IMG/VR virus record: IMGVR_UViG_3300028779_000032
Span: 1 to 23,228 of that record
Origin: a virus
Direction: 5' to 3' (one strand)
Length of the DNA: 23,228 bases
Below the pieces are notes generated by a model, which worked only from the letters and a program-made list of their open reading frames with translations, had not been told where the DNA came from and did no database searches. Position 1 is the first letter of the stretch, and each line of letters opens with the position of its first letter. Positions 2,939-17,230 of this stretch are shown one piece after another. Both the position numbers and the translations under genes were made by a program.

Positions 2939-4466
2939 CCTCCCCCTCGCTGTGCGTGAGATCGTGAAGCGCAAGCTGGCACGCGTGAATCTGCTCGACT
3001 TCATCATGTATACGAAGCCGGACTACCTCGCTGGCTGGTTCCAGCAATTGCTGTGCAGGCGCATGGATCGCTTCCTGCAACGCGTTGTGAACAAGGAAGG
3101 CCCGCGCATGCTGGTGTTCGCACCTCCGCGCCACGGCAAGACCGAGATCGTCTCTCGTCGCTTCCCTGCATACTGCCTGGGTCGCTACCCTGACATGGCC
3201 TTCATTGGCACGTCGTGGGGCAACGATTTGGCATCCTCCATCAACCGCGATGTGCAGCGTGTGATATGCAGCGAGGAGTATGGCGAACTGTTCCCCGACA
3301 CGAACCTGTGGGGCAAGAACATCCGCACCGTCGCTGATGGGTCGTATCTGCGCAACAGCGACATCTTCGAAGTCGTGAATCATCGTGGCGTCTACAAGAG
3401 CGCAGGGCGCGGTGGTGGTATCCCTGGTCGCGGTGGCGACATCATCCTGATGGACGACGTGGTCAAGGACAATGAGGAAGCGTTCTCCGAGACCGTGCGC
3501 GCATCGACGTGGGATTGGTATGTGAACGATCTCTATACCCGCAAGATGCCTGGGGCTGGGATCCTGCTCATCATCACACGACGACACGAGTTCGACATTG
3601 CGGGTCATCTGCTCGACAACATGAAGAAGGGCGGCGAGCAGTGGGAAGTGATTTCATTCCCGGCCGTCGCTGAGCATGACGAGTTCGACGAAGACGGCAC
3701 GCTGCTGCGCAAGGAAGGCGACCCTCTGCACAAGGAGCGTTACTCGCTGAAGGAGTTGATGGAGATCAAGATCGGCACTGCGGACGAGCCGGGTGTCGGA
3801 TCCAAGGTGTGGGCCTCGCTCTACCAGCAGCGTCCCAGTGCGGCCGAGGGCAACCTGTTCAAGCGTGAATGGTGGAAGTTCCTGCGGCCGATCAAGCAGC
3901 CCATCGAGATGGGGCCGAGCGAGCGTCGTGCATACTTCCGCGAGCTTGGCATTCTGCGCATCATTCAACGCTGGGATACGGCACTGGGCGAGACGAAGCA
4001 GGACGACTACACGTCATGCGTCACGCTCGGTATCGCGCGCAATCGCTACTACATCATCGACGTGTGGAAAGGCAAGCTGCAATTCCCCGACGTGAAGCGT
4101 GCCGTGCAGCAGCAGTTTGACAAATGGCACCCGCAGAAGGTCTACGTGGAAGGTGGTGGCAGTGCATCAGGCAAGGCTACAGTGCAGGCCATGAAGCGCG
4201 AATGCACAGTGCCGATCTTCGAAACCATCACGTCCACTGACAAGGTGCTGCGCGCGGACACGGTGAGTCCTGCGGTCGAGTCCGGTTTCGTGACGATCCT
4301 CGAAGGCGGCGAATGGTGCGCAGGCTTCGTGGACAACTGCGCGAACTTCCCCAATGCTCAGCACGACGATGATGTGGACGCGTTCATCGGTGCGATGGAA
4401 ACGGCCATGACCAAGGGCGCGGGCATGCACATCAGTGATGACTTCCTCGCAGCGATCGGTGCGTGA
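2925..4466 (+). CDS. terL: Terminase large subunit (packaging ATPase/nuclease)
   Basis: I place the start at the GTG at 2925 because AGGAGG lies 6 bases upstream; this overlaps TerS by 14 bases. The ATG at 2880 in the same frame lacks such a signal. The 513-residue protein has the ATPase Walker A-like loop APPRHGKTE (about residues 66-74), a Walker B segment IILMDD followed by the catalytic-glutamate region DNEE (about 173-185), and the C-terminal RuvC-like nuclease with RWDTALGE (about 350), VYVEGGG (about 407) and the acidic HDDDVDAF near the end. It drives ATP-dependent DNA translocation into the prohead and cuts the concatemer, docking on the portal. All key residues look intact. Confidence 0.95.
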   Translation: MQRPSLPLAVREIVKRKLARVNLLDFIMYTKPDYLAGWFQQLLCRRMDRFLQRVVNKEGPRMLVFAPPRHGKTEIVSRRFPAYCLGRYPDMAFIGTSWGNDLASSINRDVQRVICSEEYGELFPDTNLWGKNIRTVADGSYLRNSDIFEVVNHRGVYKSAGRGGGIPGRGGDIILMDDVVKDNEEAFSETVRASTWDWYVNDLYTRKMPGAGILLIITRRHEFDIAGHLLDNMKKGGEQWEVISFPAVAEHDEFDEDGTLLRKEGDPLHKERYSLKELMEIKIGTADEPGVGSKVWASLYQQRPSAAEGNLFKREWWKFLRPIKQPIEMGPSERRAYFRELGILRIIQRWDTALGETKQDDYTSCVTLGIARNRYYIIDVWKGKLQFPDVKRAVQQQFDKWHPQKVYVEGGGSASGKATVQAMKRECTVPIFETITSTDKVLRADTVSPAVESGFVTILEGGEWCAGFVDNCANFPNAQHDDDVDAFIGAMETAMTKGAGMHISDDFLAAIGA

Positions 4467-5518
4467 TGGGGAGCGGCTATGGGGCTACTTCGCGACTTGC
4501 TCTGGCTGCTCCGAGTCATCGTTGCAGTATTACTGCCGAGGTCTATCAGAAGACGCAGAGCGATTACGAAGCGATGGCGCAGGCACTAGCGACTGCGCAG
4601 GACGGCGAAGGCGCAGGTCATCCATTCCACGGCAACCAGCACACGGGCGGCACTGGGCGTGCTGAGCATGCTGAACAAGTCCCTGGTATGTCAAACGCTA
4701 GTATCGACATTGAGAAGTTCTGGGAGAAGGAAGACGCTGCGCACGAAGCTCGCAACGAGGCTGTGCGTGAATACAACAAAGCGATCACGGGCAAGGGCTG
4801 GGCTAAGAAGGAAGATTGGAAAGTCGCACAGGCTGAGATGGAGAAAGCAGAGCAGGCCTGGAAAGACGCCAAGAAGGAAATGAAGCAGGCCGAACTGAAA
4901 TGGCTCAAGCCTGGGATGGAGCATGCCAAGGCTGTGTGCATTGAAGAGGCCAAGCGTCAGGACTTCCCTGTGGACAAGCTGAAGTTCACGACCAGTGAGA
5001 AAGAGTTCAACGTCGGCGGAAATTCATTCAGCGAGGCTGGGCACTTCGACCCAGTCACGAAAGAGATCACATGCCGCTTGAAAGGTATGGCACTGAGCAG
5101 CAAGACAGCAGGCCTGGAGACTATCTCGCATGAGCTTGGGCATGTCGCGTTCCACGTTGCCGAAGACACGGTAGGTCGTGGCAAGCTGTGGAGCATAGCT
5201 CGTGAGAAGGAGCTTGCAGAAGCCGGTGGTGTGAGTGACTACAGCAAATCCTATTGGAGCAAGGCTGGCGCTGGTGTGCATTGCATCGGCAGTGGATACA
5301 ACCGTCTCGCAGTGAATGAGACCATCGCAGAGATCCACTCCAAGGCTGCGGTGGAGCACGCGGCTGCGAAGTATGAGGGCAGGCCTGAGAAGACGCTCAA
5401 GGAGCTTGGCGTGCCCGAGGTGTGGAAGACGCAATACAACGACATCATGGGCATATCGAAGTGGCCCACGGGTGCGCATGACTCACGGCTCAGTGTCACT
5501 GAAGAGGTGGACGCATGA
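4463..5518 (+). CDS. Tagged zincin-like metallopeptidase, putative capsid cargo
   Basis: The reading begins at GTG 4463 or ATG 4466, overlapping the TerL stop; no strong Shine-Dalgarno is visible, so the start is uncertain. The 351-residue protein has a short N-terminus, then the tag GHPFHGNQHTGG at residues 52-63, a charged coiled-coil-like segment at about 83-150, and a zincin active site HELGH at 223-227. A downstream NETIAEIH (285-292) could give the third zinc ligand of a gluzincin (E290). The tag is shared with the portal and protease products of this phage. Location between TerL and portal in the head cluster suggests a virion or prohead protein. It might process capsid proteins, or be carried into the host; the sequence does not decide. 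No signal peptide or membrane segment is seen. Confidence 0.7.
   Translation: MMGSGYGATSRLALAAPSHRCSITAEVYQKTQSDYEAMAQALATAQDGEGAGHPFHGNQHTGGTGRAEHAEQVPGMSNASIDIEKFWEKEDAAHEARNEAVREYNKAITGKGWAKKEDWKVAQAEMEKAEQAWKDAKKEMKQAELKWLKPGMEHAKAVCIEEAKRQDFPVDKLKFTTSEKEFNVGGNSFSEAGHFDPVTKEITCRLKGMALSSKTAGLETISHELGHVAFHVAEDTVGRGKLWSIAREKELAEAGGVSDYSKSYWSKAGAGVHCIGSGYNRLAVNETIAEIHSKAAVEHAAAKYEGRPEKTLKELGVPEVWKTQYNDIMGISKWPTGAHDSRLSVTEEVDA
4619..4651 (+). repeat. GNQH tag copy 1 (in zincin-like protein)
   Basis: Encodes HPFHGNQHTGG. The DNA run TTCCACGGCAACCAGCAC (4625-4642) is identical to the run at 13257-13274 in the protease gene. Confidence 0.8.
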
Positions 5519-5667: not shown

Positions 5668-6032
5668 TCACCATCACCGCACTCCTTCTGCTCGCCGCTA
5701 GCCTGTCCGCTCCACTGGCCATCCCGCCCATGCCCGAGCCTGTGCCCCTGCGCGCGGACGACAAGGCCAAGGCAGACTTCATGAACGACGCGGTGGAGAT
5801 GGCGGCTGACTACATCCTCATGGCCTTGGACGCGATGGAGAAGGCGCACAAGCATGGTTGCAGCATCGAGCTTACTGACCAGGGCTTCGAGAATGGCGAA
5901 TTCTCGGAGTTCTTCAAGCTTGTGTGCGCGCTCATCGGTGGCTATTTCAAATCACACGGCTACGATGTTTCCGCGTCCACTGAAGGCAACACCGCAACCA
6001 TCCATGTCCAGTTGACGGAGCTGCAATCATGA
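5664..6032 (+). CDS. Small protein with predicted signal peptide
   Basis: The 122-residue product starts in a 4-base overlap, with AAGGAG just upstream. Its first 19 residues (MITITALLLLAASLSAPLA) look like a secretion signal with a hydrophobic core and an A-x-A-like cleavage end (APLA before IPPMPEP), although the positive N-region is missing, which weakens the prediction. The remainder is acidic and helical with two cysteines and ends in beta-like sequence. I do not recognise a family. An exported protein between terminase and portal genes is unusual; it could act in the envelope, for example against superinfection, or the hydrophobic start may simply be a buried helix. The stop overlaps the portal start by 4 bases. 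Confidence 0.65.
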   Translation: MITITALLLLAASLSAPLAIPPMPEPVPLRADDKAKADFMNDAVEMAADYILMALDAMEKAHKHGCSIELTDQGFENGEFSEFFKLVCALIGGYFKSHGYDVSASTEGNTATIHVQLTELQS

Positions 6033-8425
6033 GTCTATTTTCCTGGCTGGACCGCAAGCGCAGAGGCTACTGGGCACTCGCAGTGTGCGAGTGGCGCAGG
6101 CACCAGCATCATGTCGAAGTGGCAGAGGTTCTGAGCAAGCACAAGCAGCACATCAGCGAAGCGTTCCTCGCACGCCTGGAAGAGGACAATGAAGGCAAGT
6201 CCGGTATCTACCACGCGCACGAAATGCCGGTGCCGCAGTGGACCGTCAAGCCATACACGCCACCCATGAAGGTCATGTGCTCGGACGGCAAGATGCTGGA
6301 CGAGCACGTCCTGGCCATGGACGACCAGCTAGGCGCGATGTGGAAGGGCTACGACAACCAGCACGCCATGGGCATGACCGGCCTGGGCTTCCCTGGCTTC
6401 CCCTACCTGAACGAACTCACGCAGATCAGCGAGTATCGCGACATCAGCGAGCGCACTGCGAAAGAGATGACCCGCAAGTGGATCAAGTTCCGCAGCACGG
6501 GCGATCACAAGCGCGACAAGGAGATCAAGCAGATCGAGGTCGAGCTTGTGCGTCTGCATGCGAAGAACATGTTCGAGCGGTGCGCTGTGCTCGATGGCTT
6601 CTTCGGGCGTGGCCAGATCTACCTGGACTTCGGTGACAAGGAGATCGACGACGTCGAGGAGATCGGCAGCAAGCTGCTCATCCAGCACGAGAAGATCAAC
6701 AAGAAGCACCCGCTCCAGGCACTGAAGGTCATCGAGCCAATCACGACCTACCCCGCGACCTACAATTCGACCTACCCGCTGCGCCAGGACTACTACGAGC
6801 CGACCTCATGGTGGGTCTACGGTGCGCGCGTCGATGCCTCACGTCTGCTCACGTTCGTGGCCCGCCCACTACCCGACCTGCTCAAGCCGATCTACAATTT
6901 TTCGGGAATGAGTTTGAGCCAGCTTGCCCAGCCGTATGTTGACTACTGGATGAGCACGCGGGACAGCGTCGGTCGTCTGCTCAAGAACTTCTCATGCAGC
7001 GTGCTGAAGACGGACCTGTCCTCGATCCTCCAGGGCGAGGGCTATGACGAATTCCTGAAGCGCGCGCGCATGTTCAATGCACTGCGCGACAACCAGGGTC
7101 TGATGGTCCTGGACAACGAGGGCGAGGCATTCGAGAAGCACGAGACCAGCCTGTCCGGCCTGGACAAGTTGCAGGCGCAGGCGCAGGAGCACATGGCCGC
7201 AGTGGCGAAGACCCCACTCACCATCCTCATCGGCATCACGCCCACGGGTCTGAACACGACGGCCGAGGGCGACATCACGATCTACAACAACCACATCAAC
7301 AACCAACAGGAGTCGATCTTCCGGCCCAACCTGGAGCGTCTGGTCAAGATCATCATGCTGTCCCTATTCGAAGAGATCTACGACGACATCACGTTCGACT
7401 TCGTCGATCTGGTCAGCCAGACCGAGAAGGAAAAGGCCCTGATGCGCAAGTCCGAGGGCGAGACGGATCAGGTCTACGTCACGATCGGCGCAGTCAGCCC
7501 TGAAGAGGTGCGCGGCAAGATCGCAGCGGATCCCGACAGCGGCTACGACGACCTGGACGTGGATCACCCGGAGGGCAAGCTGGGCCTGCCTCCCCCACCG
7601 GCCGGTGCTATGCCTCCCAAGGGCAAGGGCGGCGCAGGTGGCGCGGGTGGTGGAGGATCCACACAGGCCGAGAACACGGCCGAGACGAACGCTGCATTCA
7701 ATTCGCCTGGGGATTCGGTTCTGCATGATCACGCGTATGGACTCTGGATGGACGCGATCGCGCAGGACGAGTTCAACGGCAACCAGCATACTGGCGGCAT
7801 TGGTGGTAAGAACGACTCACCACTCGCGAAAGCGACGAAGCTCTCGTCAGCCGCACAGAGGTCCACGAACCGTGCGTGGACCGCTGGCTCCAAGGCTGCT
7901 CACCTGAAGGCGCAGCATGCGCATCAACGAGCACTGGCTGCTCATCAAGCGGCCTTGGGGTCAGCCACCAGCAACCTGAGCCATGTGCATCACGCGTTCA
8001 TCGACGCGCACCATGCGGCCATCATCGCCCATGGCCTGAAGGCGAACGAGAAGCACAACGAGGCCGAGGACGCGAACCCTGAGGGCATCAACCAATACAC
8101 CGGCACGGCTGCACCCAAGACCTATCCGGGTGTGGGCGCGCACGAGCATGCACAGGCGGGCTACGAGGCTTCGATGAAGTCCGTGCAGCTTGCGGCCAAG
8201 TCCGGCGACAAGCAGCTTCTGGCCAGTGCGCGCGCAGCGGGCGAGGCCACCTACGCTGCCATGGAGTCCGGCAAGACGGCAGACTTCAACACTGCGGCCA
8301 GCATGCACGGCAAGCTCGCCACTGAGTGCGTGACATCCAATCATCTCGACGAAGCACAAGCACACATGGATGCGTCGGAACGTCTGAAGTGGGCAGGCAT
8401 GAAGATAGCGGAGGGAGCGGAATGA
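6029..8425 (+). CDS. Portal protein (DUF1073 type) with tagged C-terminal extension
   Basis: Residues 1 to about 530 match the DUF1073/phage_portal_3 group: an N-terminal part with FPGFPYLNEL near 125, a long helical core, and the typical end motif NNHINNQQESIFRPNLERLV near 415-435. Portals form the dodecameric ring at one capsid vertex for DNA entry and exit. Databases often label this domain 'anti-CBASS Acb1-like'; I see no paired H-x-T phosphoesterase motifs, and the position after terminase argues for portal. Beyond residue 530 a Gly/Pro-rich linker leads to the tag EFNGNQHTGG (581-590), an Ala/His-rich helical module, a second tag NPEGINQYTG (683-692) and another helical module to residue 798. 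Usual family members of this type are around 450-550 residues, so about 250 residues are extra. The start overlaps the previous stop by 4 bases. Confidence 0.88.
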   Translation: MSLFSWLDRKRRGYWALAVCEWRRHQHHVEVAEVLSKHKQHISEAFLARLEEDNEGKSGIYHAHEMPVPQWTVKPYTPPMKVMCSDGKMLDEHVLAMDDQLGAMWKGYDNQHAMGMTGLGFPGFPYLNELTQISEYRDISERTAKEMTRKWIKFRSTGDHKRDKEIKQIEVELVRLHAKNMFERCAVLDGFFGRGQIYLDFGDKEIDDVEEIGSKLLIQHEKINKKHPLQALKVIEPITTYPATYNSTYPLRQDYYEPTSWWVYGARVDASRLLTFVARPLPDLLKPIYNFSGMSLSQLAQPYVDYWMSTRDSVGRLLKNFSCSVLKTDLSSILQGEGYDEFLKRARMFNALRDNQGLMVLDNEGEAFEKHETSLSGLDKLQAQAQEHMAAVAKTPLTILIGITPTGLNTTAEGDITIYNNHINNQQESIFRPNLERLVKIIMLSLFEEIYDDITFDFVDLVSQTEKEKALMRKSEGETDQVYVTIGAVSPEEVRGKIAADPDSGYDDLDVDHPEGKLGLPPPPAGAMPPKGKGGAGGAGGGGSTQAENTAETNAAFNSPGDSVLHDHAYGLWMDAIAQDEFNGNQHTGGIGGKNDSPLAKATKLSSAAQRSTNRAWTAGSKAAHLKAQHAHQRALAAHQAALGSATSNLSHVHHAFIDAHHAAIIAHGLKANEKHNEAEDANPEGINQYTGTAAPKTYPGVGAHEHAQAGYEASMKSVQLAAKSGDKQLLASARAAGEATYAAMESGKTADFNTAASMHGKLATECVTSNHLDEAQAHMDASERLKWAGMKIAEGAE
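7769..7798 (+). repeat. GNQH tag copy 2 (portal)
   Basis: Encodes EFNGNQHTGG; the DNA differs from copies 1 and 5 at few positions (TTCAACGGCAACCAGCAT). Confidence 0.8.
8075..8104 (+). repeat. NQYTG tag variant, copy 3 (portal)
   Basis: Encodes NPEGINQYTG, which matches the NPEGHNQYSG in the small protein at 11732-12091. Confidence 0.7.
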
Positions 8426-8616
8426 ACGACCTCGACACCCTGCGCTTCTACCGCTTCCAGGCCCAGCCACTGCTGGTCCATCTCTACCAGGAAGCCAAGC
8501 TCCCCGCGCCGGTTGATGGGTTCGACTACAAGATCGAAGGGCCACGTCTGGTGGCTGCACTACGCGAACAAGGATTCAGTTTTCAGTTCATCACCAAGGA
8601 AGAGAAGAAACCCTGA
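8422..8616 (+). CDS. 64-aa hypothetical protein
   Basis: The ATG at 8422 overlaps the portal stop by 4 bases and is preceded by GGAGGG, so I prefer it to a start inside the portal gene. The product (MNDLDTLRFYRFQAQPLLVH onwards, 64 residues) is mixed helical and basic/acidic with no recognisable motif. It probably belongs to the head cluster. Function unknown. Confidence 0.65.
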   Translation: MNDLDTLRFYRFQAQPLLVHLYQEAKLPAPVDGFDYKIEGPRLVAALREQGFSFQFITKEEKKP

Positions 8617-8635
8617 ACCACTCTGGAGGCCTGAA

Positions 8636-8869
8636 ATGGCTACTTTCGTTTTCACCTGCTGCGGCCGAACCGTCACGGACCCCAACCAGAACGGTGCCTC
8701 TGCCACGTTCGAGCATCTCTGCATTGGCGACGTGCCCTGCATCGGTCTCGCCAACAACGTGAATCCTGCGTCCGCGACGATAGACGTGCCGACCGAGATC
8801 GTTGACCCCGGCACCGGCACGGTCGTCGGCACCGATGGCGGCACGCCCACGAACGGCGACGGCCAGTAG
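8636..8869 (+). CDS. 77-aa Cys-containing hypothetical protein
   Basis: An ATG at 8636 follows GGAGG by 7 bases. The 77-residue product begins MATFVFTCCGRTV and has further H-L-C and P-C motifs near residues 27-35, so four cysteines and a histidine could bind a metal or form disulfides. The second half is a low-complexity Thr/Gly/Asp tail. I do not recognise a family. It ends one base before the next ATG, consistent with coupled translation. Confidence 0.6.
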   Translation: MATFVFTCCGRTVTDPNQNGASATFEHLCIGDVPCIGLANNVNPASATIDVPTEIVDPGTGTVVGTDGGTPTNGDGQ

Positions 8870-8870
8870 A

Positions 8871-11315
8871 ATGCCTCTGCGCGCACCGGGTCCGAACCCG
8901 ATCCTGCTCTCGCCCGTGCAGCCCAGTGCGGCTGTCCGGGCTTGGTATGCCCGCAGGCTTGACGCGCAGATCACCAGCATGCACCAGCACGTCCAGGTGG
9001 CCATCCAGGGCCTCTGGGAGACGAACCAGCCTGTCCATGTCGCCACGTTCCCGGCCCACGTCCTGGGCGGGCTGCTGGACCGGCTGGAGGCTCATTACGT
9101 CGAGCAGTTCAACCTGCGCGCCAGCGAAGTCGTCCACGGCTTCCTGCACCGCTGCCTGGACCACGTCGATTTCGCCTTCGGGGCAAGCCTGCGCAAGGCT
9201 GGCTTCCAGGTGGCCGCGCGTGGCCCGCTCACCTACGATGCCCTGGCCATGGACGAGTTCGAGGAGGATCTGCATCCTCGTGATGACCATGGCCGGTTCG
9301 CAGGCAGTGACTGGACCGGCCCATGTGGCAACCAGGAACTGAGCACACGCATTCCGAAGGAAACCAAGACTCGGAAGAACGATCCAGAACACGTGATGCT
9401 CAAGTCTGACCTCCAGGCGCTGCGTGACGCGCCCGCGCTGAACGACAAGAGCAAGACGCCGTGGGAGAAGATTGCGGAGTGCGTCTCATCCTATCCGAAC
9501 TTCCAGGCCCAGCCCGGTGACACGCCTGACCGGATCATCGAGCGATACATCAACGACGGTGTGAAGAACCTGCAATATCTCTACGACCGCATGTCCCCTG
9601 AAGATCGTGACCGTGCGATGCAATGGTATGACGGTGCGCACGACATTGCGACCGGCTTCGCGCAGAAGTTCGGACTGAGTACTGCACAGGCGTCCGCAGC
9701 TATTGCCACCCTCTCCCCCAAGCGTGACTGGAGGGAGAACGTATCCCTGGCCGAACGATACATGGACATCATGCATGACCATCAAGGTGCGAGGTGGGAC
9801 TCCGAAATGTCGAAGTTCTCCACCGAAGCGGGAGCCAAGGACTTCGCGAACAAGGAAGTCATGTCTCGCGTCGAGGGTAAGACCCTGGGCGAATTGAACA
9901 GTGCTGCGGACAAGGCCCTGTGGCTCATAGCCTACGATGGTGTGCACAACGAACGAGGATTCCGCGAGATCTCGCCCGAAGGAAAGTTCGGTGAGTTCGT
10001 GAAGAAGGATGATGGCTCGCTGAACAACATCGGGGGTGCGAGCGTGGTGCAGGTTGCACACATGGTGCAGGTTTACGAGCATGGTGATGCCCGGACCATC
10101 AGTGATGCACTGGGCGACGGCCACAAGGTGCGCAACTTCTACAACAACATCTACAATCCGAACTCCACTGAAGGTCATGTGACCATCGATACGCACGCGG
10201 TGGCGGGGATCCTGCTTCGCCCACTGGGACTCACCGACAACGAGGTGACGCAGAACTTCGGTGGTGGCAAGCCAGCGGTTAGTGAAGCGTCCACAGGGAT
10301 CAAGGGCACCTACTGCCTCAACCAGGAGGTATTCAAGCGCGCGGCTGAACTGGAGCATCTGCTGCCACGCCAGATGCAGTCCATCTGCTGGACATCCGCA
10401 CAGACCTTGTTCACCACGGGATTCAAACATTCGGATGGTGAGAAGAAGGTCTCCGCACTCTGGCAGAAGTATCACGACTCGAAAGGAGCGATGTCCCTTG
10501 GTCAACTCCATAAAGAAATCTCCGAAGCCTCAGGTAAGAAAATCGAACGTCCGTCCTGGGCCAATCGAGCACCTTCTGAAAAGTCTTGGCCGTCCACTTA
10601 CGAGAGAAAACTGGCTCCGAGTGAACTACCTGTTCATGCCGATTCCAGAGCCATGGACGCAAGAGGACGAGAACGAATTGCCGCCTTCTTTACGAAGACC
10701 CCTGCCGTGACGATGGATGCGACGACCATGCCGCCGAAGATCCCGTTCATCAAGCGCAAGGATCTGTGGGGCCATCTCGCGTTGAAGTTCGAGATGACGC
10801 CCAGCATGCGTCGTGCCCTGGCTGAGAGGCTGGACGACAACGTCGGCCTGATCAGCACGAAGCCGAACAAGGGTGGGACGATCTCGCGGCAATACTTCGG
10901 TCTCATCCGTGACCGTGTCTACAAGAGCATCAACAAGGGACGTGACCTGACCGGCCTGACTGAGGATCTGCACGAGGCTCTCGGCATCACGCGCAGACGT
11001 GCAGGCCTGATCGCGCGTGACCAGAACAACAAGGCCACCTCACTGTTCGTGCGCACAAGGCAGAAAGAGATCGGCATCAACAAGGCTCAGTGGATGCACA
11101 CCGCAGCGTCCATTCACCCGCGTCTGGAACATGAAGGCTGGGATGGCATGCCCTACCTTGTGGACGAGGGTATGCAGAGCATGGAGGAAGGTGAGCAGCA
11201 GTGGCCAGGAAGCGCGATCAACTGCGGGTGCTTGAGCATGCCCATCATCCCCGGCTACAACGACGAAGGTGACGAATACAGCACACTCAAGGACGATGAG
11301 GAGGAAGCAGGATGA
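8871..11315 (+). CDS. MuF-type head morphogenesis protein with large inserted domain
   Basis: I use the ATG at 8871, next to the upstream stop, rather than an upstream in-frame codon inside the previous gene; 814 residues. The MuF/SPP1 gp7-like fold is present in two pieces: residues 1-114 (ending LRKAGFQV) and about 638-800 (FEMTPSMRR, then AGLIARDQ, QWMHTAASIHPRLEHEGWDG near 740 and INCGC near 783-787). In typical members these halves are adjacent. Between them lie about 520 extra residues. They begin with LAMDEF (125-130) and HPRDDHGRF (135-143), include a domain with ATLSPKRDWRENV (near 279-291) and VTIDTHA (437-443) resembling phage DUF7178-like/HhH-glycosylase-like proteins, and end with RAMD (593-596) and VTMD (613-616). 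MuF proteins are minor capsid proteins that can carry effectors into hosts. The insert's activity is inference. Confidence 0.82.
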   Translation: MPLRAPGPNPILLSPVQPSAAVRAWYARRLDAQITSMHQHVQVAIQGLWETNQPVHVATFPAHVLGGLLDRLEAHYVEQFNLRASEVVHGFLHRCLDHVDFAFGASLRKAGFQVAARGPLTYDALAMDEFEEDLHPRDDHGRFAGSDWTGPCGNQELSTRIPKETKTRKNDPEHVMLKSDLQALRDAPALNDKSKTPWEKIAECVSSYPNFQAQPGDTPDRIIERYINDGVKNLQYLYDRMSPEDRDRAMQWYDGAHDIATGFAQKFGLSTAQASAAIATLSPKRDWRENVSLAERYMDIMHDHQGARWDSEMSKFSTEAGAKDFANKEVMSRVEGKTLGELNSAADKALWLIAYDGVHNERGFREISPEGKFGEFVKKDDGSLNNIGGASVVQVAHMVQVYEHGDARTISDALGDGHKVRNFYNNIYNPNSTEGHVTIDTHAVAGILLRPLGLTDNEVTQNFGGGKPAVSEASTGIKGTYCLNQEVFKRAAELEHLLPRQMQSICWTSAQTLFTTGFKHSDGEKKVSALWQKYHDSKGAMSLGQLHKEISEASGKKIERPSWANRAPSEKSWPSTYERKLAPSELPVHADSRAMDARGRERIAAFFTKTPAVTMDATTMPPKIPFIKRKDLWGHLALKFEMTPSMRRALAERLDDNVGLISTKPNKGGTISRQYFGLIRDRVYKSINKGRDLTGLTEDLHEALGITRRRAGLIARDQNNKATSLFVRTRQKEIGINKAQWMHTAASIHPRLEHEGWDGMPYLVDEGMQSMEEGEQQWPGSAINCGCLSMPIIPGYNDEGDEYSTLKDDEEEAG
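9273..9299 (+). repeat. HPRDDHGRF tag (MuF protein)
   Basis: Encodes HPRDDHGRF at the beginning of the inserted part of the MuF protein. It differs from the GNQH tag but holds the same kind of junction position and a similar His/Gly-rich character. Confidence 0.6.
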
Positions 11316-11479
11316 GCGAAGATCTCGCAACCAAGATAGCCGAAGAAGAGCAGCAACTCAGCGAAGACCTCGCCGTGTTCGAGGCTCAGTCAGACCCACA
11401 GCCCGATAGCGCACCCGTTCCTGTGAGTGACCAGGATGCGATCGCTCTCACGCAGTCCACCCTTTACCCTCAGAGCTAG
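11312..11479 (+). CDS. 55-aa acidic hypothetical protein
   Basis: A 55-residue ORF starting in an ATGA overlap with the MuF stop and preceded by GAGGAGGAAGCAGG. The N-terminal half is an acidic helix (MSEDLATKIAEEEQQLSEDL); the rest is Pro/Gln/Ser-rich and probably disordered. It could be a small scaffold or chaperone-like factor, but nothing shows this directly. Confidence 0.6.
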   Translation: MSEDLATKIAEEEQQLSEDLAVFEAQSDPQPDSAPVPVSDQDAIALTQSTLYPQS

Positions 11480-11489
11480 GAGCGATAAA

Positions 11490-11723
11490 ATGTCCGCAGC
11501 CCAAGACAACGCTTTCGCCGCTACCGCAGTGGCCGACAACCTCACCAACCTCGCCAATGTGAGCATGTCCTCGACTCAGCACTTCCAGGCCAATCAGGCT
11601 CACAGCATGGCGGCTGCGGCATGGAGCTCGGTCGGCACGCCAACAGCCAAGATTGCCTATCACAACAACCTCTCGGCTGTGCATCTCACCACTGCGATCC
11701 AACTCCGCACTGCGGGTAAATAG
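11490..11723 (+). CDS. 77-aa Ala/His-rich helical protein
   Basis: ATG at 11490 with TAGGAG 8 bases upstream; an earlier in-frame ATG lies within the previous gene and is less likely. The 77-residue product is rich in Ala, His, Asn and Ser. Its C-terminal half (AHSMAAAAWSSVG, then AYHNNLSAVHLTTAI) fits a two-helix pattern also seen in the following gene and in the portal extension: A-H-S-x-A-A-x-x-W, a G-P turn, then Y/H-rich helix. It carries no GNQH tag itself. Possible minor capsid or decoration element. Function unknown. Confidence 0.65.
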   Translation: MSAAQDNAFAATAVADNLTNLANVSMSSTQHFQANQAHSMAAAAWSSVGTPTAKIAYHNNLSAVHLTTAIQLRTAGK

Positions 11724-11731
11724 GAGCCGCC

Positions 11732-12091
11732 ATGCCTCCGCTGAAGAACTCGATCACGATGGACAGCAACCCCGAAGGCCACAACCAATATTCAGGTGGT
11801 TCAGGCAGGGCTGAGAAGGCAGCGAAAGCTGGCAGCAAGGCCTTGAAGAAGGTTTTCGGCAAGTCGGCCAGTGGCACTCAGGGCGCATCGCAAGCAGCCT
11901 TCGCAGCCACCAAGGTAGCGAACAAGGCAAACACAGCGAAGGCACACACGGCGGCTAACGCTGCACATTCCAAAGCTGCACAGGAATGGCATCGTGCCGG
12001 TGGACCGGAAGGTGAAAGACAGGCCCAGGCACATGAATCTGCCGCACACACCCACAGCATGGCCGCGAGCGCACTTCGCGCGAGCAAGTAA
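11732..12091 (+). CDS. 119-aa tagged Ala/His/Lys-rich helical protein
   Basis: ATG at 11732 with AGGAG 7 bases upstream. The 119-residue product begins with SITMD (residues 7-11), immediately followed by the tag NPEGHNQYSGG (13-23) and GRAEKAAK, a continuation resembling GRAEHAEQ after the zincin tag. The remainder is basic and Ala-rich with a helical hairpin (AHSKAAQEWHRAGGPEG, then QAHESAAHTHSMAASAL) like the preceding gene. It is almost just a tag plus one module, so it could be a minimal capsid cargo or DNA-condensing internal protein; basic Ala-rich proteins fit that, but this is inference. Confidence 0.72.
   Translation: MPPLKNSITMDSNPEGHNQYSGGSGRAEKAAKAGSKALKKVFGKSASGTQGASQAAFAATKVANKANTAKAHTAANAAHSKAAQEWHRAGGPEGERQAQAHESAAHTHSMAASALRASK
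11768..11800 (+). repeat. NQYSGG tag variant, copy 4
   Basis: Encodes NPEGHNQYSGG near the N-terminus of the 119-aa protein, directly after an ITMD motif (11753-11764). Confidence 0.7.
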
Positions 12092-12117
12092 CAAGCACCA
12101 TCACCAGAGGAGGTCTT

Positions 12118-12525
12118 ATGACCCTGATCGAGAACGTCGAAGCCATCACCACCAACATCACCAAGGCGAATGAAATCTGGGCCGCGATGGAGCCGCTCAA
12201 GAAGGAGTTCGAAGAACTGGCCCGCCCGCTGACCAAGCTGGACAAGGCCAAGAACTACTTCGGCGTCAAGCCGGACGGCAATGCCTACGTCATCAGCTTC
12301 AACCCGCAGAACGGCATGCCTGAGTTCCGCGAAGCCTACCCGCTGCCCGAGGCGGATTACGCGGCCGAGCAGGCTGCACAGGCCGAGGCGGATGCGCTCG
12401 CTGCCGCTGCTGCCCCAACTCTTGGCGTGTCGAACTCGAACGATGGAGGCCCCGCCAACGTGGCCGCACAGGCTGAGGCAGATGCCCTGGCACCCAATGT
12501 CGTTCCTCTTGGCCCGATCTCCTAG
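12118..12525 (+). CDS. 135-aa hypothetical head-cluster protein
   Basis: ATG at 12118 preceded by AGAGGAGG. The N-terminal 70 residues are helical and charged (NEIWAAMEPLKKEFEELARP) followed by a short beta-like stretch (AYVISFNPQNGMPEF). The C-terminal part is Ala-rich and holds a near-duplicate AAQAEADALA (about residues 85-94 and 116-125). I do not recognise a family. Position before the protease suggests a head assembly role. Confidence 0.7.
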   Translation: MTLIENVEAITTNITKANEIWAAMEPLKKEFEELARPLTKLDKAKNYFGVKPDGNAYVISFNPQNGMPEFREAYPLPEADYAAEQAAQAEADALAAAAAPTLGVSNSNDGGPANVAAQAEADALAPNVVPLGPIS

Positions 12526-12539
12526 CACTTCAACCAAGA

Positions 12540-12569
12540 CTCCTTTGCGGGATAACTACCCGCCCGGAG
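12540..12569 (+). promoter_or_regulatory. Hairpin that may mask the protease Shine-Dalgarno
   Basis: GCGGG (12547-12551) pairs with CCCGC (12559-12563) around a 7-base loop, and CTCC (12540-12543) pairs with GGAG (12566-12569), which is the Shine-Dalgarno of the protease gene (ATG 12576). The stem could limit protease translation. It lacks a U-tract and is not a typical terminator. Confidence 0.4.
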
Positions 12570-12575
12570 AGCAGC

Positions 12576-13775
12576 ATGAGCACCCTAGGCCTAGACAGCA
12601 TCACGATGGACAAGAGCACCGCTCGCAGGACAGATGCGAACGGGTTCCTCCACGTCGATGGGTGCAACATCTCGAAGGCCACGGTGAACCCGTATCTGGG
12701 CGTGGAGATTCCGAACTGGGAGTCTCTGGGCCTGGAGCGGGACAAGAAATACATGATCCTCAGGCCACCGGAAGAACTGAAGAAGGCAGCGAGCACGTTC
12801 AACAATCTGCCCCTGATGAACAAGCACATCCCGGTGGACAAGTTCAACCTGGAGGATCCTGAGGTCAAGAAGCACTACGTCGGCAGTACGGGCACCGACG
12901 CAGTGTTCGATGACCCATACCTGGTCAACTCGCTGGTCATCCACACGCAGACTGCGATCAAGGAAGTGGAGGACGAGACCAAGCAGGAACTGTCCTGCGC
13001 GTATCGCTACAAGATCGTGATGAAGTCCGGCGTATTCAAGGGTGAGGCATACGACGGGCACATGGAGGAGATCGAGGGAAACCACGTCAGCCTCGTTACC
13101 GAAGGTCGTGCTGGCCACGAGGTGATGGTGCGCGACTCGATGGACTTCATCCGCTACAAGCATGTGGCCAACGTCGTGCGCGAGGCTCTCAAAGTCTCTC
13201 CCGCACAGCGTCTGATGGATGCGCTCGGTATCGACGGTGACGTTCCCGGCCACGAGTTCCACGGCAACCAGCACGTCGGCGGCATGGGCAAGGTGTCGAA
13301 CACCGTGAACCGGATGATGTCGTGCGTCAGGAACTTCGACGGCAAGCTGAGGAAGGATGCTGGGTTCACGTTCAGTGCGCAGACCCGTGAGGATGTCACC
13401 AAGGGCATCTCGGTTGGTGTGCATCCAGAACGTGGCCTTGTGATCGACCCCAAGAACATGAGCGCAAAGGAACTCGAAAAGCACGCCGCGCAGTGGCTCG
13501 AAAAGAACAAGGAACTGTTCAAGGACAAGAGCATGAAGGTCGGAGGTTGGGTGGATCCGAAGACCGGCGAGCTTTGCCTCGACGTGGTGAAGATCTACGC
13601 ACCGCAGCAGATGAAGCAGGCCATGGCCGCAGGTTCGCAGCATGACCAGCAGGCCATCGCCAACCTGGGTGCCATCCACAGAGGCGACTGGGGCCACGCG
13701 TTCATCGACACAGGTGGCACCGGCAAGAAGATGGGCACGCACATAGCGAAGGGAGGACGACATGCCGCAGCGTAA
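12576..13775 (+). CDS. DUF2213-type prohead protease with tagged C-terminal domain
   Basis: ATG at 12576, GGAG 6 bases upstream; 399 residues. Residues 1-190 match DUF2213, a predicted head maturation protease group: ARRTDANGFLHVDG (16-29), LPLMNKHIPVD (78-88), DPYLVNSLVIH (113-123), ELSCAYRY (138-145) and HVSLVTEGRAG (170-180). The conserved His and Ser in these motifs are candidate catalytic residues. The tag GHEFHGNQHVGG (225-236) then leads to a C-terminal domain with a conserved-looking core (TKGISVGVHPE near 275, VGGWVDPKTGELCLDVVKIY 322-341, IDTGGTG 377-383) that I recall from other phage and mobile-element multidomain proteins, function unknown. Many relatives instead carry the scaffold at their C-terminus; here that is a separate gene. 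The stop overlaps the next ORF by 14 bases. Confidence 0.82.
   Translation: MSTLGLDSITMDKSTARRTDANGFLHVDGCNISKATVNPYLGVEIPNWESLGLERDKKYMILRPPEELKKAASTFNNLPLMNKHIPVDKFNLEDPEVKKHYVGSTGTDAVFDDPYLVNSLVIHTQTAIKEVEDETKQELSCAYRYKIVMKSGVFKGEAYDGHMEEIEGNHVSLVTEGRAGHEVMVRDSMDFIRYKHVANVVREALKVSPAQRLMDALGIDGDVPGHEFHGNQHVGGMGKVSNTVNRMMSCVRNFDGKLRKDAGFTFSAQTREDVTKGISVGVHPERGLVIDPKNMSAKELEKHAAQWLEKNKELFKDKSMKVGGWVDPKTGELCLDVVKIYAPQQMKQAMAAGSQHDQQAIANLGAIHRGDWGHAFIDTGGTGKKMGTHIAKGGRHAAA
13251..13283 (+). repeat. GNQH tag copy 5 (protease)
   Basis: Encodes HEFHGNQHVGG at the boundary between the DUF2213 domain and the C-terminal domain. It shares an 18-base identical run with copy 1. Confidence 0.8.
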
Positions 13776-14124
13776 GGGTGCATACGTTCTGTTCGACCCA
13801 AGCATGGGTGCCAAGAAAATCGTCGATGTGCTCATGGGCCTGCACAGCAAGATCGCAGCGGACCAATCGATCACATCCGACATCGAGGAGAGGGAAGACA
13901 CGAACCCGAAAGAAGGAAAGTCGAAATACGGCAGCGTCACATTCGCAGATCCCAAGAACCACAAATACCCACTCGACACTCCTGAACACGTTCGCGCTGC
14001 CGCGAGCTACTGGGGCATGTCGAAGAACCGTTCCAAGTATTCACAGGAGGACCAGACGACGATCTCACATCGCATCAAGGCAGCGGAGAAGAAATTCAAG
14101 ATCGGTAACCACTCCGACAAATGA
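13762..14124 (+). CDS. DUF6582-type small head protein
   Basis: ATG at 13762 with GGGAGG 5 bases upstream, overlapping the protease 3' end by 14 bases. The 120-residue product starts with a short region (MPQRKGAYVLFDPSMGAKKI) and ends with a domain reading KYGSVTFADPKNHKYPLDTP, EHVRAAASYW and SHRIKAAEKKFKI. This is the pattern I know from DUF6582, often fused to or placed next to phage prohead proteases and capsid genes. The biochemical role is not known to me. Confidence 0.75.
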   Translation: MPQRKGAYVLFDPSMGAKKIVDVLMGLHSKIAADQSITSDIEEREDTNPKEGKSKYGSVTFADPKNHKYPLDTPEHVRAAASYWGMSKNRSKYSQEDQTTISHRIKAAEKKFKIGNHSDK

Positions 14125-14146
14125 ACACCCAACCAGGAGGCCTGTA

Positions 14147-15130
14147 ATGGGCAAAAAGTTTCGTCAATTGACTGGCCAGGGGCAGACCGTGAAGGGTGCC
14201 CTGGCTTTCTATCTCGCGCCTAAGATGGCCGAGGATCAGCGTCTCAAGGCCGGTGAACTGGACAATGTGCTGAAGAGCATCACGCCCGGTCGCTATGAGA
14301 AGCAGATCAACGGCATCGTCGGTACCGTCAAGGAGAAGTTCGAGGCTCGTCTCGCAATGGACGAGTCCCTCGACGACCTGTCGGATCTACTGGCCACACT
14401 CATCCCGGCCGAGGGTGAGTATGCGATGGACGCGAAGGGCTGTGTCAAGGGCAAGGATGAGGCAGAGGACGAGGATGACGACAGCGACGATGACGCTGCC
14501 GACATGGAGATCCCGCCCAACTTCCTGAAGAACTCCACGATGAAGCCCAAGAAGAAGGGCGCGAAGGACAGTGCGGCCAAGCTGACCGAAGAGCAGGGCA
14601 GTGGCCAGTCTTCGAAGAACCTCGCTGACAGCAAGGAGGAAGAGGACGACATCGACGACGAGGAAGAGGACAAGGACGACGAGTCCGACGAGTCCGACGA
14701 CGAGGAGGGAGAAGAGGAGGACGACGCGGAGGAGAAGCCCAAAGGAAAGGACAAGAAGATGAACAAGGACAAGAAGGGCAGTGCGAAGGACAGCAAGCCC
14801 AGCATGGACGCGGCCTTCCGCAGCCTGCGCACCCTGGCCACCCAGGACTCCATGCACGAACTCCAGGCGCGCTACGAAGCGCAGGAAGCCGTGCGGCCCT
14901 ACGTCGGCAAGATCGACGTGCTGGCCTGTGACAGCGTGTTCGGCATCTACAAGCTTGCCCTGACCGCGAACAAGATCGACACGCGCGGCGTGCCGGAAAC
15001 CGCGTTCCCCGCGATGGTGAAGATGCTCCCCGGCAAGCTGGCCATGGATCAGAAGATCGAACTGGCCCAGGACGGCACGGGTGACGACAGCTTCCGCAAG
15101 CAGTTCCCCAACGCTCCCACTCTGGCTTAG
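14147..15130 (+). CDS. Acidic scaffold-like head assembly protein
   Basis: ATG at 14147 with AGGAGG 7 bases upstream is preferred over in-frame codons inside the previous gene; 327 residues. Residues 100-220 are extremely acidic Asp/Glu/Lys-rich and disordered. The C-terminal section (ARYEAQEAVRPYVGKIDVLA near 241-260, then DSVFGIYKLAL) matches the C-terminal scaffold part that in many relatives is fused to the DUF2213 protease. It likely scaffolds the prohead and is degraded by the protease. Four M-D motifs are present: LAMD (69-72), YAMD (92-95), PSMD (218-221) and LAMD (298-301), possible cleavage points. Placement between the protease and capsid genes is typical. Confidence 0.75.
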   Translation: MGKKFRQLTGQGQTVKGALAFYLAPKMAEDQRLKAGELDNVLKSITPGRYEKQINGIVGTVKEKFEARLAMDESLDDLSDLLATLIPAEGEYAMDAKGCVKGKDEAEDEDDDSDDDAADMEIPPNFLKNSTMKPKKKGAKDSAAKLTEEQGSGQSSKNLADSKEEEDDIDDEEEDKDDESDESDDEEGEEEDDAEEKPKGKDKKMNKDKKGSAKDSKPSMDAAFRSLRTLATQDSMHELQARYEAQEAVRPYVGKIDVLACDSVFGIYKLALTANKIDTRGVPETAFPAMVKMLPGKLAMDQKIELAQDGTGDDSFRKQFPNAPTLA

Positions 15131-15142
15131 GAGGATAACAAC

Positions 15143-16144
15143 ATGACTGGTGGTTTTCAGTCTCAAGTCTACAGCTACCCCGCTCCTGCGGTGGTCGGTG
15201 CTCGTGCGAGCATGAATCCGACCGCGACCATTGCGGCTGGTCCGCTTGGTCTCACCGCTGGTGCTCTCGGCCTTACGGTCGGCAAGTTCGCGTGGGTCTC
15301 CTACGCGCAGGCCGGTGGTGCTGGTGTCGCCAACAACTTCTCCCCCACCCAGCCCGCTCTTCCGGCCGGGTTCGTGAACAACGAGCAGCAGGCGTTGGTT
15401 ACGACTTGGTTGGGCAACAACGGCCTCGTGGTGCCTCCGGGCTACCAATGCACGCTGTTCGGGCGCGGCGATTTCTGGGCCAAGGCTATCTACAACGACT
15501 GCGCTGTCGGGAACAAGGTCTTCGCGAACCTGTTCTCCGGTGATGTCTACGGTGCTGCCACCGGTTCGTTCGTGAGTGCTGCGGTCGGTGCTTCTGCATC
15601 GATCACCGCGACCACCACGGCCGGATCCTACAGCATGAACGTCACCGCTTTCGCCGCCGGCACGCTCGCTGTGGGCCAGCAGATCAGCGGCCCCGGTCTC
15701 ACCAACGGCAACTACTACATCGAGTCCGGCGGCACCCTCGTGCTGCCCGCCTCGTCCGGCACCGGCACCATCAACCTGACCCAGGCTGCTGTGGCCGCTT
15801 CGACCGGCGGCACCTTCACCACCGTCGCGAACGTCGGCATCGGCGGCTGCGTGTGCTCCAGCGTCTCGTCTGCTTCCAGCACCACGCTGACCATCAACAC
15901 GGTCACCAGCGGCACCATCGTCCCTGGACAGATGATCCAGCAGATCACCAGCATCCCCGCGAACAACTGGGTGGCCAGCATCGGCACCTTCAACGGGACT
16001 TCCGGCACCGTCATCATGGGCCTCGCCAGCACGGGCACGATCACCGCGCAGGCTTGCAACTTCTCCGCGTGGATCGAGACCCCCTGGTATTTCCTTTCTG
16101 CCGGGAACGTCGGTGACCTCTGCAAGATCGGCATCTTGAACTAG
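15143..16144 (+). CDS. Capsid cement/decoration protein with inserted beta domains
   Basis: ATG at 15143 after AGGAGG; 333 residues. Residues 1-140 (QVYSYPAPAVVGARASMNP, FAWVSYAQ, QQALVTTWL, PPGYQCTLFGRGDFW) match the 'structural cement protein Gp24-like' pattern that binds the outside of the capsid. Two Thr/Gly-rich beta repeats follow: 152-219 (AGTLAVGQQISGPGLTNGNY) and 238-303 (SGTIVPGQMIQQITSIPANN). The last 30 residues (ETPWYFLSAGNVGDLCKIGI) look like the return of the core. Typical members are shorter, so the two repeats are insertions. A related repeat is inserted in the sheath. It lies directly upstream of the capsid gene. Confidence 0.78.
   Translation: MTGGFQSQVYSYPAPAVVGARASMNPTATIAAGPLGLTAGALGLTVGKFAWVSYAQAGGAGVANNFSPTQPALPAGFVNNEQQALVTTWLGNNGLVVPPGYQCTLFGRGDFWAKAIYNDCAVGNKVFANLFSGDVYGAATGSFVSAAVGASASITATTTAGSYSMNVTAFAAGTLAVGQQISGPGLTNGNYYIESGGTLVLPASSGTGTINLTQAAVAASTGGTFTTVANVGIGGCVCSSVSSASSTTLTINTVTSGTIVPGQMIQQITSIPANNWVASIGTFNGTSGTVIMGLASTGTITAQACNFSAWIETPWYFLSAGNVGDLCKIGILN
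15596..15799 (+). repeat. Inserted beta domain, copy A (cement protein)
   Basis: Encodes residues 152-219 with the pattern T-x-x-A-x-G-T-L-A-V-G-Q-x-I-x-G-x-G, then N-Y-Y-I and S-G-T-G-T-I-N-L. Similar in pattern to 15854-16051 and 19734-19967. Confidence 0.55.
15854..16051 (+). repeat. Inserted beta domain, copy B (cement protein)
   Basis: Encodes residues 238-303 with TLTINTVTSGTIVPGQMI and WVASIGTFNGTSGTVIM, a diverged version of copy A. Confidence 0.5.
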
Positions 16145-16156
16145 GAGCGATGAGCC

Positions 16157-17230
16157 ATGAAGAGTTTCACTTCCAAAACCAAAAACTTCGCCAAGTATTA
16201 TGGCATTGGCGTTGATTCCGGCGAGGCTTTCCTCCAGCCCTGCGTGGACGTTCGTCGTCCCGGCATCGCAATGGACCAAGCTCTTGAGATGGCCATGGAT
16301 GCCCCGGTCAACCTGCTGCAAGCGGGCCTCGTCACCATCGGCAACGCGGGCATCCCTGCCTACCTCGCCAACTACCTCGACCCCGAGGTGGTGCGCGTGT
16401 TCACCGCACCGCTCAAGGCCGTCGAGATCTTCGGTGAGCAGAAGAAGGGCGACTGGACGACCGATACCGCCCAGTTCCCTGTGATCGAGAGCACGGGTGA
16501 AGTGTCGAGCTACGGCGACGATGATGACAACGGCCTCGCACAGGCCAACGTGAACTGGGAACCTCGTCAGTCCTATCACTACCAGATCTTCACTCGCTGG
16601 GGTGACAAGGAGATGGCGAAGGTCGGTCTCGCGAAGATCGATTGGGCTGCTGAACAGAACGTGTCCAGTGCGCTCATCATGAACATCTTCCAGAACAAGA
16701 GCTACTTCCTGGGCGTGGCCGGACTGAGCAACTACGGGCTTCTCAACGACCCGTCGCTGCCCGCTGCGATCGCTCCGCTCAATGGTGCGTGGACCTCGTC
16801 CACCACGGGCGTGCAGATCTTCGCGGACATCCAGAACATGTTCGTCACGCTTCAGCTTCAGCTTGATGGCAACATCGAGATGGAAGACGAACTGAGCCTG
16901 TGCTTGCCCCCCGCGAAGCAGCCCTACCTGCTGACCCCGATGCTCAACACCTATGGCACCGCGACCGTCAAGCAGTTCCTCAAGGAAGCCTTCCCCAAGC
17001 TCAAGATCTTCACCGCTGTGCAGTACACGCTCTCCACTGGCGTGAACACTGCGCAGTTGATTGCGCCCAGCGTCCAGGGCCAGAAGACTGGCTTCTGCGC
17101 CTTCACTGAAAAGAGCCGCAGCCATGCGATCGTCCGCAAGACCTCGTCCACCCACCAGAAGAAGTCCGGCGGCACCTGGGGAGCAATCGTCAAGATCCCC
17201 GCTGCCATCGTCACCCTCTCTGGTTTCTAG
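16157..17230 (+). CDS. Major capsid protein
   Basis: ATG at 16157 following AGGAGCGATGAGCC; 357 residues. The sequence resembles the DUF2184-type 'major capsid family' (HK97 fold): LVTIGNAGIPAYLANYLDPE near 59-78, KAVEIFGEQKKGDWTTDTAQ near 90-110, SNYGLLNDPSLP near 194, LLTPMLNTYGTATVKQFL near 257 and a Lys/Ser-rich end. It forms the icosahedral shell. Two motifs, IAMD (37-40) and MAMD (45-48), lie just before the conserved capsid core, so cleavage there would remove an N-terminal delta-like region of about 40-48 residues. That cleavage is inference. Neighbours are the cement protein and connector genes. Confidence 0.88.
   Translation: MKSFTSKTKNFAKYYGIGVDSGEAFLQPCVDVRRPGIAMDQALEMAMDAPVNLLQAGLVTIGNAGIPAYLANYLDPEVVRVFTAPLKAVEIFGEQKKGDWTTDTAQFPVIESTGEVSSYGDDDDNGLAQANVNWEPRQSYHYQIFTRWGDKEMAKVGLAKIDWAAEQNVSSALIMNIFQNKSYFLGVAGLSNYGLLNDPSLPAAIAPLNGAWTSSTTGVQIFADIQNMFVTLQLQLDGNIEMEDELSLCLPPAKQPYLLTPMLNTYGTATVKQFLKEAFPKLKIFTAVQYTLSTGVNTAQLIAPSVQGQKTGFCAFTEKSRSHAIVRKTSSTHQKKSGGTWGAIVKIPAAIVTLSGF

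Follow-up and report, generated by a model that had tools for sequence, protein, structure and literature searches.

A tagged C-terminal domain on a DUF2213 head maturation protease belongs to a widespread, unnamed phage family and may be virion cargo

The window, by which we mean the whole stretch of DNA analysed here, is a 23,228-base IMG/VR virus record. Its plus strand carries a head maturation protease gene of 399 aa (12576..13775), identified by matches to PF09979 (DUF2213, residues 17-188, E 1.1e-45, placing the ORF within the DUF2213 family) and to phrog_2229, head maturation protease (E 1.4e-80). Behind the protease part stands a short tag, GHEFHGNQHVGG (residues 225-236; 13248..13283, plus strand), followed by a C-terminal segment of 163 residues (237-399; 13284..13772, plus strand) with the stop codon next to it. 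The segment consists of a short tail and what we call the "GGW domain", our name for the unnamed phage domain underlying PHROG 17808 and PHROG 3170. The conserved core runs from GFTF to GGTG (about residues 261-383; 13356..13724, plus strand) and the signature GGWVDPKTGELCLD lies at 13542..13583 on the same strand. The preliminary description of this DNA had pointed to a conserved-looking core and a Gly-rich end after the tag, and both VGGWVDPKTGELCLDVVKIY and IDTGGTG are found in the segment. A pattern search of viral contigs returned 3 contigs with close relatives of the segment, all carrying the same fusion at 79-97% identity. When the window was compared with one of its relatives, L003 (one pair, NG86), dN/dS was 0.11 for the core, 0.03 for the tag region and 0.31 for the protease part (residues 1-200); on this one pair, the value for the core indicates that the segment is maintained by purifying selection.

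Tags are also found in other genes of the window. The expression G.?NQ[HY][TVSI]G, written, as were the other tag expressions, after examples had been seen, matches 5 sites in 23 reading frames of the window versus 0.003 expected in shuffles. Besides the protease, the sites are in the portal gene (6029..8425, plus strand), the C-terminal extension of which has two tags, GNQHTGG at residue 584 and GINQYTG at residue 686; in the gene of a 119-aa protein (11732..12091, plus strand), near the N terminus (SITMDSNPEGHNQYSGG); and in an ORF at 4463..5518 (plus strand), where the tag GHPFHGNQHTGG is accompanied by a HELGH motif that is zincin-like by eye and has no Pfam match. The MuF gene (9273..10703, plus strand) carries the tag HPRDDHGRFA and a DUF7178-containing insert. 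Relative to L003, identity is 67% in the N-terminal part of MuF, 98.7% in the DUF7178 insert and 80% in the MuF end; relative to L001 it is 42% in the insert and 98.5% in the MuF end. These contrasts between insert and flanks show that the DUF7178 cassette is exchanged among close relatives, bounded by the tag. The limits of the cassette are the HPRDDHGRFA tag and a following AVTMD.

The route into the GGW family was a weak tblastn match (E 0.2) to a 111-residue stand-alone protein of the gut phage MT835542; the family was then extended to similar phage contigs, actinophages, a Fusobacterium phage and five bacterial genome contigs. A candidate hit in Escherichia phage EK8 was set aside. An alignment of the first eight members has 17 invariant columns, including the start methionine, and in an alignment of sixteen members G, V, G, W and A are invariant. 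Against a profile made from 14 members outside this protease group, the window segment scores 57.6 bits (E 2.3e-16), versus 13.3 bits for the top score among 3000 shuffles. With three separate sub-profiles the scores are 51.8, 35.4 and 81.9 bits; masking the 14-residue GGW motif leaves 17.7, 17.9 and 38.6 bits, the best shuffles reaching 11.2, 7.7 and 6.3. Residues 257-386 of the window protein are also 35% identical to part of L093, an otherwise unrelated giant protein with a frame of 2748 residues; this match comes from a direct blastp against 119 pattern-hit ORFs, and its E of 1.8e-18 holds for that small set. The segment has the invariant G-G-W and the near-invariant G27, F28, G41, G95, D100, A113 and Q122 (segment numbering), the G-G-W invariance being partly by construction because most relatives were gathered with a motif that itself contains GGW and was built from family members. 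In QxAI[FWY]D, the window copy has N for D; as D is present in 73 of 104 scored copies among the matches listed, it is common and not defining. These sequence comparisons place the segment in an unnamed, widespread phage domain family.

That the domain lacks a name, as had been noted at the outset, holds for the databases searched: Pfam and NCBIfam gave no credible match to it in the window segment or in 16 members, and the Pfam LPD models gave no match to the 16 members at E 1 (some LPDs may have no Pfam model). Matches to DUF2024 (E 0.0013) and to the NCBIfam vinyl phenol reductase (E 0.0033), each in one of the 16 members, were not taken as credible. PHROG 17808 matches 12 of the 16 and PHROG 3170 matches 6, including the window (E 1 or better); both PHROGs are of unknown function, and the window segment itself is matched by phrog_3170 only, weakly (E 0.015). 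No usable match came from PDB sequences, whether the query was the segment or the family profile, and further single-protein scans found no relative.

The AlphaFold model of the window segment has a mean pLDDT of 90.4 and a pTM of 0.85, with the last five residues below pLDDT 50; the model of another member, L044, reaches a pLDDT of 95.8 and a pTM of 0.88. The predicted layout is an N-terminal helix and then strands and helices, in which a hairpin is probably made up of the GGW strand (84-90) and the one after it (97-105). A Foldseek search of the PDB with the L044 model gave no match at E 0.001, and VIA-align reached a Z of at most 3.8 with L044 and 3.7 with the model of the window segment; the absence of a PDB match does not amount to a new fold. 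PDB rows resembling eIF4E (best E 0.29, TM 0.26; VIA Z up to 3.1) were set aside as noise. Versus viral structure models, 19 matches were obtained at E 0.001 or better, among them, by name, PBSX XkdF, a zeta-toxin protein and a 433-residue protein of phage Spud. In the aligned sequences, the invariant G-G-W and the near-invariant D and Q look like a candidate binding site more than a catalytic one. The C-terminal end of the protease is confirmed as a real, separately folded domain, in agreement with the preliminary description.

IMG/VR viral contigs were scanned with a DNA motif covering the GGW part, which recovered at least 119 stretches. Among the matches listed, the reading frame scores above 40 bits in 109 of the 119 and below it in ten (34.3 in one of them). 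By stop-to-stop frame, 66 of the 109 confirmed stretches among these matches lie in frames of at least 400 aa (the longest of 2978), 9 in frames of 200-399 and 34 in frames of less than 200; deduplication at 85% identity leaves, again among the matches listed, 77 distinct domains, 39 of them in frames of at least 400 aa. Three of the 109 (L083, L114 and L122) are the window's own family. GGTG is found within the domain or up to 30 residues past it in 17 of the 109 (among the matches listed), including the same number, three, from the window's own family. The preliminary description had placed the pattern in large multidomain proteins of phages and mobile elements. The phage part of this is borne out by the 66 long frames; for conjugative elements it is not, tblastn of plasmids having returned one partial match (E 0.3), on a Rhizobium plasmid, which was rejected as its translated frame lacks the GGW motif, and nothing with a second query. 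In actinobacterial genomes the domain was found in 2 of 296, one of which is the seed genome itself, and it thus looks rare in those chromosomes. An Actinoalloteichus protein (L021:3467-4246) has a membrane-anchor-like stretch, recognised by eye, and then the GGW domain.

The proteins that carry the domain are varied. In 31 deduplicated carrier ORFs of at least 200 aa, drawn from the first 80 loci and scanned at E 0.001, we found portal domains in 5, LPD38 in 2, DUF7178 in 2, GNAT in 2, MuF in 1 and ART-PolyVal in 1 (some below curated cut-offs), and one match each to MafB, DUF3990, a methyltransferase, a zinc peptidase and DUF6861. When ten carrier ORFs were scanned singly, a portal match exceeded the cut-off in 2, 4 had a sub-cut-off match only and 4 had none. 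PHROG 6651 (internal virion protein) matches 1 of the 31, and an annotated internal virion protein contains the domain in the Synechococcus phages S-CBP42, Syn5 and P60 and in cyanophage SS120-1. The profile search with a list of fused partners that had been proposed for this segment thus yields portal, MuF, LPD38 and ADP-ribosyltransferase domains, and also stand-alone copies. At E 0.01 the domain is found in 188 mycobacteriophage records, 187 under Mycobacterium and one under Mycolicibacterium, with some phages present under two accessions. The locus was inspected in one of these phages, Breeniome, where gene 105 encodes the GGW domain and lies between the major capsid and head decoration genes, adjoining gene 104. 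Stretch L158:6204-9384 corresponds to Breeniome genes 104 and 105, and TAREQFEMLxPW near the N terminus is common to both proteins. In Breeniome 105 the GGW domain stands behind an HDFFGH stretch, which is recognised by eye in L104 and L105 as well. Several actinophages have single-domain copies with no head gene annotated in flanks of 2.5-3 kb, Arthrobacter phage MissSwiss gp48 and Mycobacterium phage BabyRay gp12 being examples; these copies suggest that the domain does not need the virion and acts on its own. A Streptomyces phage Dagobah copy (L027:2453-2848) is deposited as 'putative DNA endonuclease VII', a name we rejected as a guide to the domain; its 131 aa are mostly GGW domain.

If the segment were a standard part of DUF2213 proteases, its relatives should carry it, and they do not: six DUF2213 protease relatives, 46-62% identical, are without it. 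The GGW profile scored four of the six at 0.5 bits or less and did not report the other two (MT839840 and L166). What stands at the end of these proteases differs. The L163 and L164 proteases have helical-looking modules behind NPEG[IV]NQYTG tags, L166 ends in another short module, and the protease ORFs of AP22, Aeromonas phage 4_D05 and MT839840 end in a scaffold-like region; one further relative, L165, is cut by the contig end. The protease ORFs of L163, L164 and L166 share a small module, KGHKDSxGKxAPWVI, located at the C terminus or close to it. The window has a scaffold-like gene (14147..15130, plus strand), the tail of which matches the C-terminal part of the AP22, MT839840 and 4_D05 protease ORFs. 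With the low-complexity filter off, the E values are 2e-8 for AP22, 2e-6 for MT839840 and 4e-4 for Aeromonas 4_D05; without its acidic stretch the gene still matches, at 8e-8, 2e-7 and 5e-5, respectively. The window's scaffold-like gene thus matches what are fused tails elsewhere, so that in the window protease and scaffold are encoded separately, and what follows the protease is the tagged domain. By these comparisons the GGW segment is not a usual part of DUF2213 proteases.

Among the matches listed, a recognised tag stands within 80 residues upstream of the GGW domain in 19 of the 109 confirmed stretches: MKDxxGHGS in 10, RDxxG[RKQ][FW] in 5, GNQH in 2 and two others in 1 each. Both GNQH cases are the window's own family, so this tag has not been seen before a GGW domain elsewhere. 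A first tag test had given 8 of 74 versus 0.3 in shuffles, the 8 including near-duplicates (L062/L065 and L072/L076) and the window's own family (L114). In a single frame, L105:873-3515, the tag KGGxGSGNFGHxGRPGxxGGS occurs three times, each time before another module, one of which is a putative metallopeptidase (PF04298, below its cut-off).

The MKDxxGHGS tag is a feature of gene arrays. Among the matches listed, ten contigs have 3-7 genes each starting with MKDxxGHGS, 50 genes in total (L061, at 6945-9512, L044, L050, L066, L077, L084, L098, L108, L130 and L156); as L044/L050/L061 and L108/L156 are near-identical in DNA, they represent seven distinct arrays. In the eight contigs tested, each array has exactly one GGW gene, and the gene bodies are mutually unlike save for one pair in each of two contigs. 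A large-terminase-like ORF, recognised by eye, is near the L061 array and has a homologue in 6 of 7 other contigs tested. By eye, the array genes include a metallopeptidase-like one (HEIGH, L066) and an ADP-ribosyltransferase-like one (L108).

A further short motif is concentrated in the head genes of the window. In six head proteins (6029-17230) [AT]MD occurs 11 times versus 0.92 expected, and in twelve other window proteins 0 times versus 0.66; as the motif was picked after looking, this enrichment is only a lead. [ATG]MD is enriched in AP22 (5 versus 0.25) and Aeromonas phage 4_D05 (3 versus 0.34), and shows no enrichment in MT839840, L163 and L164. [AT]MD is possibly a protease site.

Fusion of the domain through a tag to a maturation protease had been taken to suggest delivery or regulation. 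Delivery is the option favoured by the sequence data, through the fused partners, the shared N-terminal tags and the head-gene neighbourhoods; for regulation of the protease we found no evidence. Since distant phages fuse the domain to portal, minor-head or giant proteins, or make it alone, it is probably a virion passenger and not a part of the protease. We consider it rather probable that it is an exchangeable cargo domain that goes into the head on the protease, is ejected and acts on a host target. The GGW domain, behind its short glycine-rich tag, would be carried into the prohead by the DUF2213 protease; probably cut free by proteolysis close to the tag, it would remain in the head; and it would enter the host with the DNA and there act on its target. 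Counting against this reading are the single-domain copies away from annotated head genes, the recognised tag upstream in only 19 of the 109 confirmed stretches among the matches listed, with GNQH confined to the window's own family, and the N for D in this copy.

An assembly function, in which the domain anchors the protease to scaffold, capsid or portal, or keeps it inactive, and is destroyed at maturation, is unlikely in our view. It keeps some weight because in some phages the very position of the domain is taken by a scaffold-like region of the protease, and fusions to portal, MuF and internal virion proteins agree with it as well. However, related proteases do without the GGW domain, single-domain copies such as MissSwiss gp48 and BabyRay gp12 have no annotated head genes nearby, and there are copies in bacterial genomes, one of them behind the membrane-anchor-like stretch noted by eye. 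The many single-domain copies, some away from annotated head genes, would also suit an expressed anti-host or anti-defence protein that is never delivered and is fused to the protease here by accident, but its repeated fusion to unlike head proteins and the N-terminal tags shared near terminase-like genes make this improbable. That the segment is decaying sequence without function is scarcely credible: the N for D in QxAI[FWY]D and the low confidence of the last residues would fit decay, but the core has a dN/dS below that of the protease part (one pair) and a fold predicted at pLDDT 90.

The cargo reading may extend further, to a modular system common to many tailed phages, in which short tags mark interchangeable domains for head loading and ejection, [AT]MD-type sites close to the tags may be cut by the prohead protease, and the GGW domain is one widespread cargo. 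The tags concerned are GNQHxGG / NPEGxNQYTGG, PRDxxGRF, GSGNFGHxGRPG and MKDxxGHGS, on portal, MuF and protease fusions or on separate proteins. We put forward this extension tentatively, as a plausible idea that we would not yet expect to hold.

Several known systems resemble parts of this picture. One is the polyvalent proteins, for which fusions to portal and MuF are described, as are 40 LPDs whose function is unclear (Iyer et al. 2017, PMC5512222). The GGW domain has such settings too: it sits in giant phage proteins together with LPD38 and ART-PolyVal and is fused to portal and MuF. A number of GGW relatives combine several domains of different function in one protein; unlike these, the window protein is a head protease with the GGW domain alone. 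In PMC5512222 'prohead protease' occurs in the reference list only. MuF polymorphic toxins (PMC5576092) are similar in being a head protein with an exchangeable extra domain and differ in the carrier, which in the window is a protease. T4 internal proteins with a capsid targeting sequence (PMC5694885) share a short N-terminal sequence on unlike small proteins, which compares with the MKDxxGHGS arrays, whereas the window tag is internal in portal and protease. PHROG 17808, PHROG 3170 and PHROG 6651 (internal virion protein) are existing groupings matched by GGW family members. In the open PubMed Central set no paper was found with the tag strings, and DUF7178 and DUF6582 had zero occurrences among the papers listed.

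A single domain now links many hypothetical phage proteins, including those in the 188 mycobacteriophage records, and the short tags that precede it and other modules are possible head-loading signals. If tags do load cargo, the proteins that phages inject would become predictable from sequence.
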